Source of the DNA: Spirochaetota bacterium
GTDB lineage: Bacteria; Spirochaetota; UBA4802; UBA5368
Assembly (NCBI GenBank): GCA_035477215.1
Contig: DATIKU010000055.1
Location: 1-57,406, forward strand
Length of the DNA stretch: 57,406 nucleotides
Direction: 5' to 3'
Shown piece by piece: positions 39,569 through 46,415 of this stretch (positions are counted from its first letter, which is position 1; each line of letters opens with the position of its first letter). Both the position numbers and the translations under genes were made by a program. Under the pieces are notes generated by a model, which was not told the origin of the DNA, did not search any database, and saw only the letters and a list, made by a program, of their open reading frames with translations.

Positions 39569-39751
39569 TACAGAACACGCCTTCTCTCTCTATCTGGTGC
39601 GGTGACGAGATGGTCCGCTATCCGTTTTATTTTTTAAAGGACTTTTTGTCGAGCATACAGTTTTTTTCGCTATCTCCGGTCGGTTCGCCAGCATGGCCGG
39701 TTTTTAATTTGACTTGTCGTCTCGATATGATAGCCATTGGGGAGGGCGGGC

Positions 39752-42700
39752 ATGGACATAATCGAAACAACACCAACATCGGCGCAGAGCAGCCTCAGCC
39801 GGTTCAGGCTGCAGGACGAACGCCTTGTCTCGGACGACAGGGTAAAGGAGGAGATCGGCGCCGCGTTCGCCGAAAACCGCTGCTTTTTTTTCACCGCCGA
39901 TCCGGCCCTCGTCGCCCGAATCAGAGAGGGGGGCCCGGCCGCCCTCTACCGCGAAGACATGATCGCGATGAAAAACGCGGTCTTCGACGTCGCGTCGGGC
40001 GATGACCAGACAATTAAAAACCGGTTCTTGAGCGACACGCGACTGTCCTCGCGTCTGGTCTCGGCCGTCATGTTCGTCCACATGGCACTGGCGGAAGAGG
40101 GTCTCTCCTCGCTCGCCGGACGGCGCTTTGTCATTGTCCGCGAGCGCCCCGGCGTGCCGACGCTGCTGCATGTTTCCAATGAGACCACAGTGATCTCCCA
40201 CGTCGGCCAGGGCCCGGTATGGGAGGAGATCCCCTCTCTTTACCTCGGGATGAATATCTTCGATACGCTCTCGTACGAGACGAAGCGAGGCGAGCGCGTT
40301 TATTTCGATGCGTTCGTAAGGCTCCTTGCAATCGAAGCGAGAGCGATAGAGACCGGCTATGCGCACGTCGAAGTTTTTCCGGTGGAGTATTCCCGCTCCC
40401 TCAACTCGCTGGTCGACGAGGTTATCCGCGTTTCGACGATCGCCGCCCTGGAGTTTCGGGAGGTCGCGCCGAAAAAAACGGTGCGCCCCTTCAGCCCCGC
40501 GGACAGGCGGCGCCTTCTGAAGCAGCTTGACGCGCGGGTGGCCGGCAGCGAGATGAATTTCGACGCCGACGCGAACCTGAGGGGCCTCTCGTCGATCGAG
40601 CGCCTGGCTCGTTCCTACAAGCAGGCCGGCGACGAGGCCTCGCTTCGCGGGGCGGTGCGCCTGCTCGTCGCCGCCTCGGGGCACGATGTGCACGAGGTGC
40701 GCGACAGGGCGAACATCCTCCTGGAAAGGATATTCTCGCCCAAGGAGTTCGACGCGCCGCTGGCGACGGTTTTCACCACGATGCCGGTGGGATCGCTTCA
40801 CCGCTTCGAGTTCGACCTGCCCTTCCGGGGCGCGCGCTATTTCGTCCGCCTGTACCGCCAGGGCCGGTCGGGTCAGTTCACCATGCGGCGCGACATCGAC
40901 ATGCTCGATATCGACCTCGGGTACGACGCCATGTCGGGCCGGTTCACGGCGTCGCATGTGTTCGGGGAATACGGCCACTTCGACTATGTGGTTTTTCGAA
41001 AAAAGAAGAAGAGCGAATGGGTTCACCATTCGGACACCAGCGGAAGGATCAACATCATTCCCGACGTGCGGGGCGAGATAATCCTCGAAATATTCACGGA
41101 CATCCACGGCCATACACGGATATACTGGATGGACGGCTCGGGGCATCCCGGGCTGGTGTACAACGAGCACGGGGAGGTCGTCAGGCTGGGGCGTTTTTCC
41201 GACATAACCATGCACCTGGACGACCTTAAAAAACGCTACTCTATCACCGCGCTCTATCTCCTCGGCGTGCAGAAACGGGGCTCCAACCGCGAGGACTGGG
41301 CCCCCGAGGCGTCATCGCCCTCGCCTTTTTCACCGATGAGTCTGATCGAAATAGAGCCGTCGCTTGGCGGGGAGGATGAGTTCCGCGAGCTGGTCGACGC
41401 AGCTCACCGCGCGGGCGTCCGGGTGATCGTCGATATCGTTCCGCATCTCAACAGGCGCAGCACCGAGGTTCCCGAGGACTGCGTGGTGCGGTGTTATGAC
41501 GGAGAGGGTCGTCTGGTTGAGCGCGCCTCTACCGACGGAAGGTACGGCAGCTGGAACGACGGCAAGCTTTTCAACTATCGAAAGATAGAGGTGTGGGAGT
41601 GGCTGGCGCGTTCGATCACCACGCTCATCGAGCGGTTCGACATCGACGGCATTCGCTTCGATTCGGCGCATGCCGTCCCGATCATGATGAAAAAGAACAA
41701 CTATCCCTCGGTCTACGGTGTCCCGCGCACCGCCGAGGAGGGCCTGGAGGGCGGCATCATCGTCAACGAACGTGAGGACGGCCACTTCGTCACCACGGGT
41801 TATTATGATTCGGCCTGCCGCGACGTCATCGCAATTCCCCTGCACTACTATCTCATGCTGGCGGTCGAGCGGAAACTGCGCGAACTTGGCCGGGACTTCT
41901 TCATCAACATAGCTGAATGCTACTGGGGACACGAACGGTTCCTGACGCGCGTGGGTATCATTCCCTACAACTCCGCGCTTTTCAAAATCTGCGAAAACAT
42001 CATCCACGGGACCGCCGATGTCCGCGAGATCTATCACATCTATGATAATTATTTCCCGTCGGTGATGCCGAAGGGCACGGAGCTCCTCGGCATACTGGGA
42101 AACCACGACGAACGGAGGGCGCTTAACACCTTCGGTCACAGGGGGCTGCGAGCGGCGGTCGGTGTGACCACGTTCATGAACAATATCATCATGGACTACG
42201 AGGGGAGCGCCGAGGGCGAGGGATGGAAGGTTTACCTGGACAACATTTTCGTCAACTGGAACAGTTTCGAGTATGCGGCCCACCGGAGCGTTGAGCGATT
42301 TTACAGCGAGTGGTACGAGTTTCACCGCAGGGAAAAGGGCAGAGGCTACCTGGTATGGGCGAACAACACGAACGTCGCCGCCTCGGTCAAGTTCACCGAT
42401 AGCGGTATCTGGATAGGCGCCTTCAACTTCGCGGACTCCAGCCAGGCGGCCTCGATCCAGTTCGATAATCCGGCTCTTCCCCTGGAGGATGAAACGCTCT
42501 ACCGCGTGGTTGACCCGGTATATTCGCCGATAACCCGCCATTACGCCTTTTACACCGGGCGCGAACTCAAGACCTCGCGCATCGACACGGTGGTTTCGTT
42601 CACAGACAGGGTAAAGCTCCTCAAGCTCGAGGAAGTGACGGACATAGACGGTCTCTACCGTGATTTCCTGCGGGATTCGTTTTTGCGAATGTGCCTGATT

Positions 42701-44629
42701 TCAAACATCGCTCACTTCGAATCCAATTTCGCCTTCCGCGAGATTGCCGCCAACTGCGCATCCTTCGACACCTTCTCCGAGTATGTCTCCGCCCATTTAA
42801 TTCCAATGTTCTGGGACAACAATCGCCACCATCTCGAACTGGGACTCAAAAGGGCGCTATTTCATTCCGTCCGCACCGGAGCGCTCGAGGCGCGACGATC
42901 GGTCTCCTTTTTCAAAAAAATGCAGTCAACGGCCGACGGCCGCATCCGTTCGCTCGGCGAGGCCCTGGAGTCCCACAACCGCGGCGATTCCATGGTGTTC
43001 ATGTCGGCCGAGGCCGACCCCTTCTCGAAGAGCGGGGGACTGGCCAACGTGGTGTACGAGCTTCCAAGGGAGCTCGTCGCGCTCGGCGAGACCGTGTACG
43101 TCATCACGGGCCTCTGGCGCGGCGGGGACGAAATGGCCGGGGCCAGGATGCGTTCGGCCGTGGAGCGGTACGACGTGCGCTATACCGGAAAGAACGTGCG
43201 TCTCAAGATAATGAATGCCGAATACGAGGTGGGCGTATACCGCGGCGTGGTCGACGGCGTAACGTTTTTTCTGCTGGACCACCACGAGTTTTTCGACGGC
43301 CTCTACTGGGGCATAACATCCGAGGAAAAGCTCCGTCGCCGTATCGCCTTCGCGCGCGCGAGCGCCGAGGTCATCGTCACCTTCGGCCTTCGGCCTCTTT
43401 TTACCTTTACCAACGACGCGTATACGGGCCTTTTCAACGGCATCGTTCGGAGCGACCACGTTTACGCTTCGAACCCCAATTTCTCGCGCACGACCTTTCT
43501 GCACATCGTCCACAACGGCGGCTGGCAGTATTTCGACGCCTACCACCGCCATGAGCGGGGATTCGACCTGTTCCAGCTCTTAAACCTGCCGCCATGGAAG
43601 GCGGTCGATTTCGTCGATCCGGTGTATAGCGACCGCCTCAACTGCATGGCTTCGGGAATCAGGTTTGCCGACAGGGTGATTACGGTAAGCCCGAGCTACG
43701 CCCGCCAGATTGAGTACGCCTGCGACGGCCTGGAACATCTCCTCTCCAATGTCATCGGGATCAGCAATGCCGTCGGCAGGGACTTCGCCCGGAGGCTGTC
43801 GGACGCCTTCAGGGATTCCGGTTTCGTTAATAAACAGTATCCGCGACTCATCGAGGCCCTGCACGGAGACGCCACCCTCATGAAAAATGTCTTGGCCCGC
43901 TGGCCCGAAATGACGGTCGGCATGGATGCCGTGGAGAAAATCACCGGAGATTCGCGGCGCTTCGCGGCCGTCCGCGCGCGGAACAAGATGATGCTGCAAC
44001 TCGAGCGGGGTCTCGCGGTCGATCCGGACGCGGTGCTCTTCTGCATGATACACCGCATAACCGAGCAGAAAGGATTTCAGCTGGTACTGGACGCGTCGGA
44101 GGGGCTCTTCGCCCACCTGGGCTACCAGGCGGTTCTCGGCGGGTCCGTTTCGTCCGGGGACCGCCGCGGCGAGGAGATCGCCCACGGGATGTATCTGCTT
44201 GCCGGGTATTATCCCGGCAATGTCAGCGTGTCCTTCGGCTTTCAGGACATCGCTGTGCCTCTTTTTTCCTCGGACATCTTCTGCATGCCGTCGATGAGCG
44301 AGCCAGGGGGGATATCGCAGCTTGAGGCACTCGCGGCGGGATGTCTGGTGGTGGCGCGCGCGACGGGAGGGCTTCGCGATACGGTGTTTCCGGTGCGCTC
44401 GAAAGACGGCGTCCTCGAGGGCAATGGCTTCCTTTTTACCGACTTCAATGCGACCGCTTTTTACGATGCCATGGAACGGGCCCATCAGTTTGTCCGTTCA
44501 GGCGACGATGCCACGCTGTATCGCGCAGGGAAAAACGCGATGTCGTCGATATATAACTGGGACCGTCCGGCCAGGCGGTATATAGAATCGGTGTATGCGG
44601 TGAAGGAGATTATCCGGATTGTCGAATAA
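39752..44629 (+). CDS. GH13 (alpha-amylase-type)-GT5 (glycogen synthase) fusion enzyme
   Basis: A single 1625-residue chain. Residues 1-430 are not recognised, partly helical, with a probable beta-sandwich near 330-430. A GH13 domain (about 430-900) keeps all four conserved regions: DIVPHLN with Asp561, GIRFDSAH with nucleophile Asp637, NIAECYW with acid Glu722, and LGNHDE with Asp786. The C-terminal GT5 domain has the ADP-glucose motif KSGGLAN (Lys1093) and Glu1517/Glu1525 in SEPGGISQLEALAAG. Both halves look catalytic. ATG 39752 follows GGAGG; an upstream TTG (39737) has no SD. It probably makes and trims or transfers alpha-glucan; which direction dominates is unknown. Confidence 0.88.
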   Translation: MDIIETTPTSAQSSLSRFRLQDERLVSDDRVKEEIGAAFAENRCFFFTADPALVARIREGGPAALYREDMIAMKNAVFDVASGDDQTIKNRFLSDTRLSSRLVSAVMFVHMALAEEGLSSLAGRRFVIVRERPGVPTLLHVSNETTVISHVGQGPVWEEIPSLYLGMNIFDTLSYETKRGERVYFDAFVRLLAIEARAIETGYAHVEVFPVEYSRSLNSLVDEVIRVSTIAALEFREVAPKKTVRPFSPADRRRLLKQLDARVAGSEMNFDADANLRGLSSIERLARSYKQAGDEASLRGAVRLLVAASGHDVHEVRDRANILLERIFSPKEFDAPLATVFTTMPVGSLHRFEFDLPFRGARYFVRLYRQGRSGQFTMRRDIDMLDIDLGYDAMSGRFTASHVFGEYGHFDYVVFRKKKKSEWVHHSDTSGRINIIPDVRGEIILEIFTDIHGHTRIYWMDGSGHPGLVYNEHGEVVRLGRFSDITMHLDDLKKRYSITALYLLGVQKRGSNREDWAPEASSPSPFSPMSLIEIEPSLGGEDEFRELVDAAHRAGVRVIVDIVPHLNRRSTEVPEDCVVRCYDGEGRLVERASTDGRYGSWNDGKLFNYRKIEVWEWLARSITTLIERFDIDGIRFDSAHAVPIMMKKNNYPSVYGVPRTAEEGLEGGIIVNEREDGHFVTTGYYDSACRDVIAIPLHYYLMLAVERKLRELGRDFFINIAECYWGHERFLTRVGIIPYNSALFKICENIIHGTADVREIYHIYDNYFPSVMPKGTELLGILGNHDERRALNTFGHRGLRAAVGVTTFMNNIIMDYEGSAEGEGWKVYLDNIFVNWNSFEYAAHRSVERFYSEWYEFHRREKGRGYLVWANNTNVAASVKFTDSGIWIGAFNFADSSQAASIQFDNPALPLEDETLYRVVDPVYSPITRHYAFYTGRELKTSRIDTVVSFTDRVKLLKLEEVTDIDGLYRDFLRDSFLRMCLISNIAHFESNFAFREIAANCASFDTFSEYVSAHLIPMFWDNNRHHLELGLKRALFHSVRTGALEARRSVSFFKKMQSTADGRIRSLGEALESHNRGDSMVFMSAEADPFSKSGGLANVVYELPRELVALGETVYVITGLWRGGDEMAGARMRSAVERYDVRYTGKNVRLKIMNAEYEVGVYRGVVDGVTFFLLDHHEFFDGLYWGITSEEKLRRRIAFARASAEVIVTFGLRPLFTFTNDAYTGLFNGIVRSDHVYASNPNFSRTTFLHIVHNGGWQYFDAYHRHERGFDLFQLLNLPPWKAVDFVDPVYSDRLNCMASGIRFADRVITVSPSYARQIEYACDGLEHLLSNVIGISNAVGRDFARRLSDAFRDSGFVNKQYPRLIEALHGDATLMKNVLARWPEMTVGMDAVEKITGDSRRFAAVRARNKMMLQLERGLAVDPDAVLFCMIHRITEQKGFQLVLDASEGLFAHLGYQAVLGGSVSSGDRRGEEIAHGMYLLAGYYPGNVSVSFGFQDIAVPLFSSDIFCMPSMSEPGGISQLEALAAGCLVVARATGGLRDTVFPVRSKDGVLEGNGFLFTDFNATAFYDAMERAHQFVRSGDDATLYRAGKNAMSSIYNWDRPARRYIESVYAVKEIIRIVE

Positions 44630-44636
44630 AAAAAAG

Positions 44637-44660
44637 ACGGGATAGTGGATATCCCGTTTG
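44637..44660 (+). terminator. probable terminator after the GH13-GT5 gene
   Basis: ACGGGATA (44637-44644) and TATCCCGT (44650-44657) form a perfect 8-bp stem with a 5-base loop, eight bases after the stop codon, preceded by a run of A and followed by TT. The arrangement would work in both directions. Confidence 0.6.
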
Positions 44661-44749
44661 CCACGTAAAGTCTTCTCGGTTATGCCTGTACGGCGAGCGG
44701 GAAGACCGTTGAGTGTTAAATGATCTGTGGTTACTATCGTCAAGAACCG

Positions 44750-45376
44750 ATGCGGACTTTAACGAAAACCGGACGCGGTTCCGGAAAAATTAACGGGTGG
44801 GAGGCAGGTCTCACCCTTTTAGCGCTGCTGTCCGTGTGCGCGTGCGCTTCCGCGGGCGACAGCGTCGGCGTTTCCGTGGGGAAGGTGGTGAAAAGCATGA
44901 CCGGCGAACCCGTGATCCCGAGGGAAGCGAACCGGATACTCGTGTACGACTTTCGGGGCGCCCCGGGCGACCGGACGCTCCGAACCAGGCTTGGCATCCG
45001 GGTGCGGGAATTACTTGCGGCCGACGGCAGGCTGGCCGTTGTGGCCGACGAGGACCAGGCCGACCTTGCGCTCGAGGGTGTCGTGACGGGCCACGAGACG
45101 CGGCCGCTGCGTTACAGCGAGATGGGCCGGGCCGTAAGCAAGCGGATGCGGATTACGGCGTCGGTGCGCCTGTTCGACCGCAATAAAAACAGGGAGATCT
45201 TTTTCGAGCGGGAGATCCAGGCGTTCGAGGAGTTTTCGGACATCGAGCCGCCGGTTGTCCCCGAGGCGGCGGCGCTCGATCGCGTTATCGACGCCCTCGC
45301 GAAGCGGATAGCGCAGCAGACCATGCGGGGCAGTTATGCCGGGCTTCTCACGCCGGTTGAAAAAGGCAGGCAGTGA
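44750..45376 (+). CDS. lptE: LptE-like LPS-assembly lipoprotein
   Basis: A short lipoprotein of about 208 residues. ATG 44750 gives a basic start and a hydrophobic core ending in a Cys-rich lipobox (LLSVCAC); ATG 44720 is an alternative. The mature part has NRILVYDFRGAPGDRTLRTRLGIRV-type sequence (quoted in parts: NRILVYDF, RTRLGIRV), LALEGVVTGHETRPLRYSE and RITASVRLFDR, typical of the LptE/RlpB fold that plugs the LptD barrel. Its place immediately before holA is the classic lptE-holA order, which strengthens a sequence match that alone would be modest. Confidence 0.72.
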   Translation: MRTLTKTGRGSGKINGWEAGLTLLALLSVCACASAGDSVGVSVGKVVKSMTGEPVIPREANRILVYDFRGAPGDRTLRTRLGIRVRELLAADGRLAVVADEDQADLALEGVVTGHETRPLRYSEMGRAVSKRMRITASVRLFDRNKNREIFFEREIQAFEEFSDIEPPVVPEAAALDRVIDALAKRIAQQTMRGSYAGLLTPVEKGRQ

Positions 45377-45377
45377 T

Positions 45378-46415
45378 ATGGATAAAAAGCGGTTTCCGAT
45401 CGCCCGGGAGCTCTACGCGGAACTTGACAAAAAACGCGTTGCGCGCGCGTACCTCTTTCTCGGCGAGGACGAGGGCGAAAAGGACAAGGCCGTGCGGCGC
45501 ATCGCCGCTCTCGTTCTGAGTGGCCCCGGGGCGGAGCATTCGCTGGGGCGCTTCCACTGCGAGATGGGCGAACTCATGCAGGCGGCCGATTTTACGCTTA
45601 ACAGGTCCATGTTCTCCGACGCGCGGATATGCGTGCTGCTGAACATTGATGCAATTCCGGCGGGCGCGGCAAACACCGCGCTTCTGGCCGAGGTCTTCGG
45701 TTCGCTTTCGGATTCCACGGTGCTGGTGATGACGACCCGGGCCAACAGCCCCCCCGGGCGAATAGGGGCGAGCGCCATACCCGGAATGAAGGTGTACCAC
45801 TTCTGGCCGCCTTTCGAAAACGACCTCGTCGCCTATATCGTGCGCGCTCTCGAGCCGGAGGGGATATCCATCGACGCCCGCCCGGCGCGTGCGCTCGTCG
45901 ATCTCCTCGGAAGGGACGTGCGCGCGGTTGACGGCGCGCTTGAAAAGCTCAGAAATGCGGGGGTCGCCAGGGTAACCGAGGAGACCGTGCGCTCGCTCAT
46001 CGGTGGGGAAAAGGACTATTCGCTCTTCGAGTTTGTGGACGCGCTGTATCGCGGCGACAGGTCTTCACCCGGGCTGCTGAAAAATTTAATTGAAAACAAC
46101 TGCCCGGAGCTTCTAATCTTGAACCAGATGGCGCGGCAGGCCGATTCCATCGAGCGATATCATCTCGCGGTGCGCGCCGGCGATGGCGAGGATGAGGCGC
46201 TTCAAAAGGCGTCCGTGCCGCCGCGTGCGGGGAAAGCGTTCCTTGAACTGGCGCGCAGAAACCCGATTATTAAAATAAAACGGATATACCCGCTGCTCCA
46301 CAAAGCGGATTTCGCCCTTAAAAGCTACAGGGTCTCGAAAAGCGTCGTGGCCGGTCCGTTGTTTGACCTGTCGCGCGAGATGCTTGCGCTCGAGGCCGCG
46401 CCAGCGGCGGTATAA
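45378..46415 (+). CDS. holA: DNA polymerase III delta subunit
   Basis: Clamp-loader wrench that opens the sliding clamp; 345 residues, normal for HolA. ATG 45378 follows AGGCAGG and lies one base after the lptE stop; a longer frame to 45336 overlaps lptE and is not needed. Family traits are AYLFLGEDEGEKDKAV at the start, the region KVYHFWPPFENDLVAYI, and LVDLLGRDVRAVDGALEKL, with KDYSLFEFVDALYRGD in the C-terminal part. It precedes the adenylate cyclase gene by 16 bases. Confidence 0.88.
   Translation: MDKKRFPIARELYAELDKKRVARAYLFLGEDEGEKDKAVRRIAALVLSGPGAEHSLGRFHCEMGELMQAADFTLNRSMFSDARICVLLNIDAIPAGAANTALLAEVFGSLSDSTVLVMTTRANSPPGRIGASAIPGMKVYHFWPPFENDLVAYIVRALEPEGISIDARPARALVDLLGRDVRAVDGALEKLRNAGVARVTEETVRSLIGGEKDYSLFEFVDALYRGDRSSPGLLKNLIENNCPELLILNQMARQADSIERYHLAVRAGDGEDEALQKASVPPRAGKAFLELARRNPIIKIKRIYPLLHKADFALKSYRVSKSVVAGPLFDLSREMLALEAAPAAV

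Follow-up and report, generated by a model that had tools for sequence, protein, structure and literature searches.

In textbook pathways, one protein serves as glycogen synthase and another as branching enzyme. A GlgA-GlgB chimera has been described in Waddlia chondrophila by authors who regarded a fusion of this type as exceptional and knew of no other reported case. The chimera has an inactive branching half, is confined to a few Chlamydiae and is decaying (PMC7935935). In fungi, the alpha-1,3-glucan synthase (Ags1/AgsB) is a membrane protein in which an extracellular GH13 domain precedes a GT5 domain (PMC5753165). Here we describe a spirochaete gene that encodes a GH13 and a GT5 domain in one chain. 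Literature searches, with most subscription papers outside their reach, found no published account of a spirochaete GH13-GT5 fusion.

The gene lies in the window, the whole stretch of 57,406 nucleotides that was analyzed, and the window belongs to a 3.57-Mb draft genome of 62 contigs (95% complete). The features of the locus, with the evidence for each, are as follows.

39739..39746, plus strand: ribosome-binding site GGGGAGGG, in the sequence upstream of the fusion ATG
39752..44629, plus strand: coding sequence of the 1625-residue GH13-GT5 fusion protein (open frame, Pfam, homologues, ATG)
39752..40741, plus strand: residues 1-330, private N-terminal alpha/beta domain, dense in invariant H/R/E/D (alignment, AlphaFold model)
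40760..41071, plus strand: residues ~337-440, beta-sandwich of the GH13 module (AlphaFold model, fold match to a GlgE domain)
41102..42631, plus strand: residues ~451-960, GH13 barrel and C domain (Pfam, sequence profile, model, fold match)
41432..41434, plus strand: D561, GH13 region I (VIVDIVPHLNR) (alignment, sequence read)
41660..41662, plus strand: D637, GH13 region II nucleophile (DGIRFDSAHAVP) (alignment, sequence read)
41915..41917, plus strand: E722, GH13 region III acid/base (INIAECYWG) (alignment, sequence read)
42104..42109, plus strand: H785-D786, GH13 region IV (GNHDERR) (alignment, sequence read)
42632..42985, plus strand: residues ~961-1078, helical linker, the least conserved part (alignment, model, dN/dS)
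42986..44617, plus strand: residues ~1079-1622, GT5 glycosyltransferase of the glycogen/starch synthase type (Pfam, TIGRFAM profile, tree)
43028..43030, plus strand: K1093 (KSGGL; E. coli GlgA K15) (alignment)
44054..44071, plus strand: R1435 and K1440 (E. coli GlgA R300 and K305) (alignment)
44300..44302, plus strand: E1517 (SEPGG; E. coli GlgA E377) (alignment)

A first-pass annotation had claimed a single 1625-residue frame holding both enzymes, and this was borne out: the 1625 codons run from an ATG without an internal stop, Pfam matches both GT5 and Alpha-amylase, and the residues it named are found where it placed them. Its two provisos, a frame error between the domains and a catalytically dead GH13, did not apply. 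Searching 247 genomes of the phylum, we found homologues of ~1600 residues in one uninterrupted frame in ~40 genomes, and broken copies lay mostly at contig ends; the catalytic residues of the GH13 half are intact and invariant, with dN/dS far below 1. One relative, G154 (contig C27, locus L027), has a single in-frame TAA within the gene, for which a sequencing error and a recent break are both possible. Directly 3′ of the fusion stop is an inverted repeat (44637-44657); it resembles a terminator of minus-strand transcription because its T-run sits on the minus strand (CTTTTTTTT), and both flanking genes are on the plus strand. Downstream, at 44720-46415, are a short lipoprotein-like gene and then a DNA polymerase III delta-like (holA-like) gene, neighbors that recur at 19 and 24 of 49 fusion loci, respectively. 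The neighbors give no operon clue because no glycogen genes are among those that recur.

The GH13 half has the active site of its family. Pfam Alpha-amylase (PF00128) matched residues 480-564 over the cut-off (E 5e-9), and the same family was matched in 39/39 homologues. The acidic residues that the annotation had placed at 561, 637, 722 and 786 are D561, D637, E722 and D786; all four, together with H785, are invariant in the alignment of homologues, and regions II-IV thus supply the nucleophile Asp (D637), the acid/base (E722) and the stabilizing Asp (D786) of GH13 enzymes. Region I is shifted, with a His four places after the invariant D561 (DIVPHLNR) versus five in DxVxNH. A model of residues 330-1075 (pLDDT 82) showed a GH13 barrel with its C domain, and it matched amylase folds with Z up to 29.1 (rmsd 3.3, 384 residues aligned).

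Sequence and structure pointed to different relatives of this half. By sequence, the nearest PDB matches were 4gkl (Thermotoga neapolitana AmyB, E 8e-10) and 3dhu (E 1e-9), and a Granulicella amylase aligned over 338 columns, including the region IV motif HDExRAL that it has in common with the fusion. In hhalign these amylase-like enzymes scored 104 versus 85.5 for GlgB, and the profile ranking put amylase-like enzymes first, then GlgX and TreZ, GlgB, TreY and, last, GlgE. For the GH13 model, which included the beta-sandwich, GlgE structures (GH13_3) took the top 12 places in Foldseek (E about 1e-21 to 5e-23), the best overall match of the module; in VIA-align, GlgE (Z ~27 over ~500 residues) drew level with amylases (Z 27-29 over ~390). 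Two assignments were rejected. GlgB fails on TIGR01515 (36 bits versus a cut-off of 463.95). GlgE, which Foldseek had suggested, fails on its signature motifs DNPHTKP and EAFTRP, replaced in the fusion by DSAHAVP and ECYWGH, and on the lowest profile score of the six GH13 groups compared. A CBM48 domain (PF02922) gave no match in the fusion at E up to 1, and the beta-sandwich that is present belongs to a different sequence family. As judged from profiles and the predicted fold, the GH13 half is a branch with an amylase-like sequence and a GlgE-like domain layout.

The annotation had also described a 430-residue N-terminus of unknown kind. This description holds for residues ~1-330, which are conserved and private to the fusion, and not for residues ~337-440, which form the beta-sandwich attached to the GH13 barrel. 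The AlphaFold model of residues 12-445 (mean pLDDT 88.6) is alpha/beta to about residue 330 and a beta-sandwich thereafter. The best fold match of the sandwich is a GlgE domain (4u3c; Z 9.0, rmsd 2.9, 89 aligned), only slightly above unrelated immunoglobulin-like folds. For the N-terminal domain, a Pfam scan of 37 homologues returned scattered chance-level matches only, and a profile search of the PDB returned nothing credible. The fold search returned only beta-sandwich matches, mostly immunoglobulin-like, from a query that included the sandwich and so barely probed residues 12-330. The invariant polar residues of this domain (H110, R124, R125, E131, E195, T201, H205, H311, D312, E315 and R317) resemble a ligand site more than they do a spacer, and the 330 residues probably bind or regulate something particular to the fusion enzyme.

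The GT5 half is complete, as had been claimed. Glyco_transf_5 (PF08323) matched residues 1082-1332 (E 1.9e-36, 126 bits), and Glycos_transf_1 matched the GT1-type C-terminal half at 1423-1577 (E 5e-14). Lys1093, one of the residues named beforehand, is invariant among the homologues, and the other two, Glu1517 and Glu1525, are at least 90% conserved. K1093, H1254-N1255, R1435, K1440 and E1517 are identical in 20/20 fusions compared, and so are the residues equivalent to E. coli GlgA K15, D137, H161, N246, R300, K305 and E377, which contact phosphate, ribose or glucose (PMC6210743, PMC2576272). The fusion thus has the GT5 fold family and all the phosphate- and glucose-contacting residues in common with bacterial GlgA, but it differs on the adenine side of the pocket, where S299 of E. 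coli GlgA is an invariant H1434, S360 is a hydrophobic V/I/L, Y355 is Phe or Tyr, and H356 is Gln/Leu/Met. These changes hint weakly at another nucleotide donor, weakly because plant starch synthases, too, show variation at the same positions (PMC6210743, PMC2576272). The fusion scored 212 bits on TIGR02095 (GlgA, ADP-glucose type), below the curated cut-off of 328.45, and in the GT5 tree the fusions formed one group apart from GlgA (support 100/100). At 5.4 changes per column, the branch to this group is too long for its root to be placed with certainty.

We next consider where the fusion occurs. Its close relatives are found in Spirochaetota MAGs such as ADurb.BinA120 (83%) and Prado230 (92%). 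Among the 247 phylum genomes, almost all of those in the window's order, which has seven families, carry the fusion, and it also occurs in two additional families. When 84,980 species genomes were scanned, 48 fusion loci turned up, Candidatus Marispirochaeta associata JC231 among them, all in Spirochaetota or unclassified-bacteria records with one exception, a 5.7-kb contig (L051, SOIB01000142.1) of a Candidatus Stahlbacteria MAG that carries the full fusion at 62% identity. This contig is likely misbinned and possibly reflects transfer. Contig-end fragments aside, the GH13 and GT5 parts occur only together in the 247 genomes, with no GH13 half apart from the fusion, and in 393 Spirochaetota genomes searched by profile, the N-terminal region occurred only in fusions or fragments of them. 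We then compared the window gene with four relatives of 83-92% identity. The dN/dS values were 0.10-0.13 for the N-terminus, 0.09-0.28 for the beta-sandwich, 0.03-0.04 for the GH13 barrel, 0.13-0.20 for the linker and 0.05-0.14 for GT5. All parts of the fusion are under purifying selection, and the GH13 barrel is the most constrained part because its values lie below those of GT5. The fusion is real and old, and the sequence evidence, within its limits, excludes that the GH13 domain is dead or an artefact.

To judge the suggestion that the fusion may work alone, we examined the glycogen genes around it. No other glycogen gene is adjacent, as the annotation had noted: within the window, the fusion is the sole match to glycogen-enzyme queries. 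Elsewhere in the same genome are GlgA, a second phosphorylase and a GH13 glucosidase-like enzyme (all on contig C47), GlgC adjoining a GH57 transferase (C53), GlgX (C58), GlgP (C8) and a GH57 branching enzyme (C16). The fusion would here work beside an ordinary GlgA/GlgC/GH57 pathway, and the suggestion fails for this genome; it does fit a sister family, f3.

The survey of carriers for separate glgA and glgB that had been proposed covered 46 genomes of the order, incomplete MAGs of families f1-f7, with GlgB called by TIGR01515 at E 1e-30, GH57 branching enzyme by PF09210, and GlgA and GlgC over their cut-offs. GH13 GlgB was found in 0/46 genomes by this criterion, GH57 branching enzyme in 14 (only in f1, f2 and f5), separate GlgA in 24, GlgC in 17 (none in f3, f4 or f5) and alpha-glucan phosphorylase in 44. 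Family f3 comprises 20 genomes (e.g. Prado232, RBG_16_49_21, RBG_13_51_14 and UBA5763); 18 carry the fusion, one more has a fragment of it, and all 20 have at least one phosphorylase. GlgC, GlgB and GH57 branching enzyme are absent from all 20, and a separate GlgA was found in only 2. The fusion is the only recognizable GT5 synthase in most f3 genomes and, among the branching-enzyme families searched (GH13 GlgB and GH57), the only candidate for branching there. The regions around phosphorylase genes in f3, f4, f6 and f7 held no other glycogen gene. Only one near-complete genome of the order, G127 (f5), has no fusion; it also has neither GlgA nor branching enzymes and keeps two phosphorylases. 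A nucleotidyltransferase-phosphohexomutase fusion (NTP_transferase + PGM_PMM, 830-870 residues) recurs through the order, including f3 genomes without GlgC, and in the window's genome lies at C16:54182-55183 (G000, L100); it is a possible source of another nucleotide-glucose.

Because the GH13 and GT5 active sites are both intact in a single chain, building and remodeling in one protein is the natural reading. With slightly better than even confidence, we take the fusion to be a cytosolic bifunctional alpha-glucan synthase, in which the GT5 half would extend alpha-glucan chains and the GH13 half, a retaining enzyme with its nucleophile and acid/base in place, would cut and re-join, or trim, the same growing chain, perhaps branching it. 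We infer that both halves are active and share a substrate, as we do the action of the GH13 half. Its likeliest single activity would be branching because most carriers are without another recognized branching enzyme; it is quite possible, too, that this half hydrolyzes or transfers and creates no branches, because the sequence is nearer amylase-like enzymes than GlgB. Branching by the fusion would not be needed in f1 and f2 because a GH57 branching enzyme coexists there, and the inactive branching domain of the Waddlia fusion counts, by analogy, against this explanation (PMC7935935). A bolder form is unlikely: here the fusion would prime, elongate and branch an alpha-glucan unaided, with a GH13 half that represents a third class of branching enzyme besides GH13 GlgB and GH57 and with a donor supplied by something other than GlgC, so that in f3 a single polypeptide would have replaced GlgC-GlgA-GlgB. 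There is next to no chance that the fusion arose from an assembly or frame error, or that it is a chimera in decay whose GH13 is dead: the internal TAA of G154 is the sole point in favor, against one open frame in ~40 separate genomes and dN/dS far below 1 in every part.

The nearest sequence relatives of the GH13 half, maltogenic or amylase-like (4gkl, 3dhu and the Granulicella amylase), would fit a hydrolase or maltogenic amylase whose role is to trim chains or to supply GT5 with short maltooligosaccharide primers, without adding branches. We regard this as a serious but somewhat doubtful alternative, since it leaves 29 genomes (f3, f4, f6 and f7) without a recognized branching enzyme, nearly all of which keep glycogen-type phosphorylases, and since a hydrolase fused to a synthase would undo some of the synthase's work if left uncontrolled. 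It is quite improbable that the fusion is a bacterial counterpart of the fungal synthase, making a structural or exported alpha-glucan rather than glycogen with a GH13 half that joins chains by transglycosylation. The same two catalytic families stand in the same order in one chain (PMC5753165), in f3, where GlgC is absent, UDP-glucose may serve as donor as it does in fungi, and a very long branch sets the clade of fusion GT5 domains apart from GlgA, with differences in the adenine pocket. However, neither a hydrophobic signal nor a membrane segment shows in the hydropathy profile of the fusion protein, which peaks at 1.2 over 19 residues, and its chain terminates after the GT5 part with no C-terminal multi-membrane domain, which argues against a split across a membrane and an export pore, and intracellular phosphorylases are retained. 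Still more remote is a GlgE-like maltosyltransferase using maltose 1-phosphate, which would couple two donor routes in one protein; the Foldseek and VIA-align matches to GlgE speak for it, and the replaced motifs, the bottom-ranked profile score and the tie with ordinary amylases speak against it.

Under the favored bifunctional reading, the fusion would stand in for the missing GlgA, and possibly GlgB, in f3. Whether a single polypeptide builds branched alpha-glucan becomes directly testable, and alpha-glucan storage in these bacteria will escape surveys keyed to GlgA, GlgB and GlgC.

The maltogenic and alpha-amylase-like enzymes, closest to the GH13 half by sequence, are free-standing, without a GT5 partner or the N-terminal domain. 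GH13 and GT5 in one chain is not a new architecture. Like the Waddlia chimera, the spirochaete fusion unites a glycogen synthase of family GT5 with a GH13 enzyme in one bacterial chain, but in Waddlia GlgA comes first and the GH13 enzyme is a true GlgB, whereas here GH13 comes first and is not GlgB. The union of these two enzyme classes is here ancient, order-wide and strongly selected, in contrast to the dead branching half of the reported bacterial case (PMC7935935). It shares with fungal Ags1/AgsB the order of the two domains, GH13 before GT5. A signal peptide, membrane segments and an export domain are present in the fungal protein, whereas the spirochaete fusion has none of these and adds its private N-terminal domain. 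What is new is the variant, a bacterial one that is cytosolic and order-wide and carries a private third domain.
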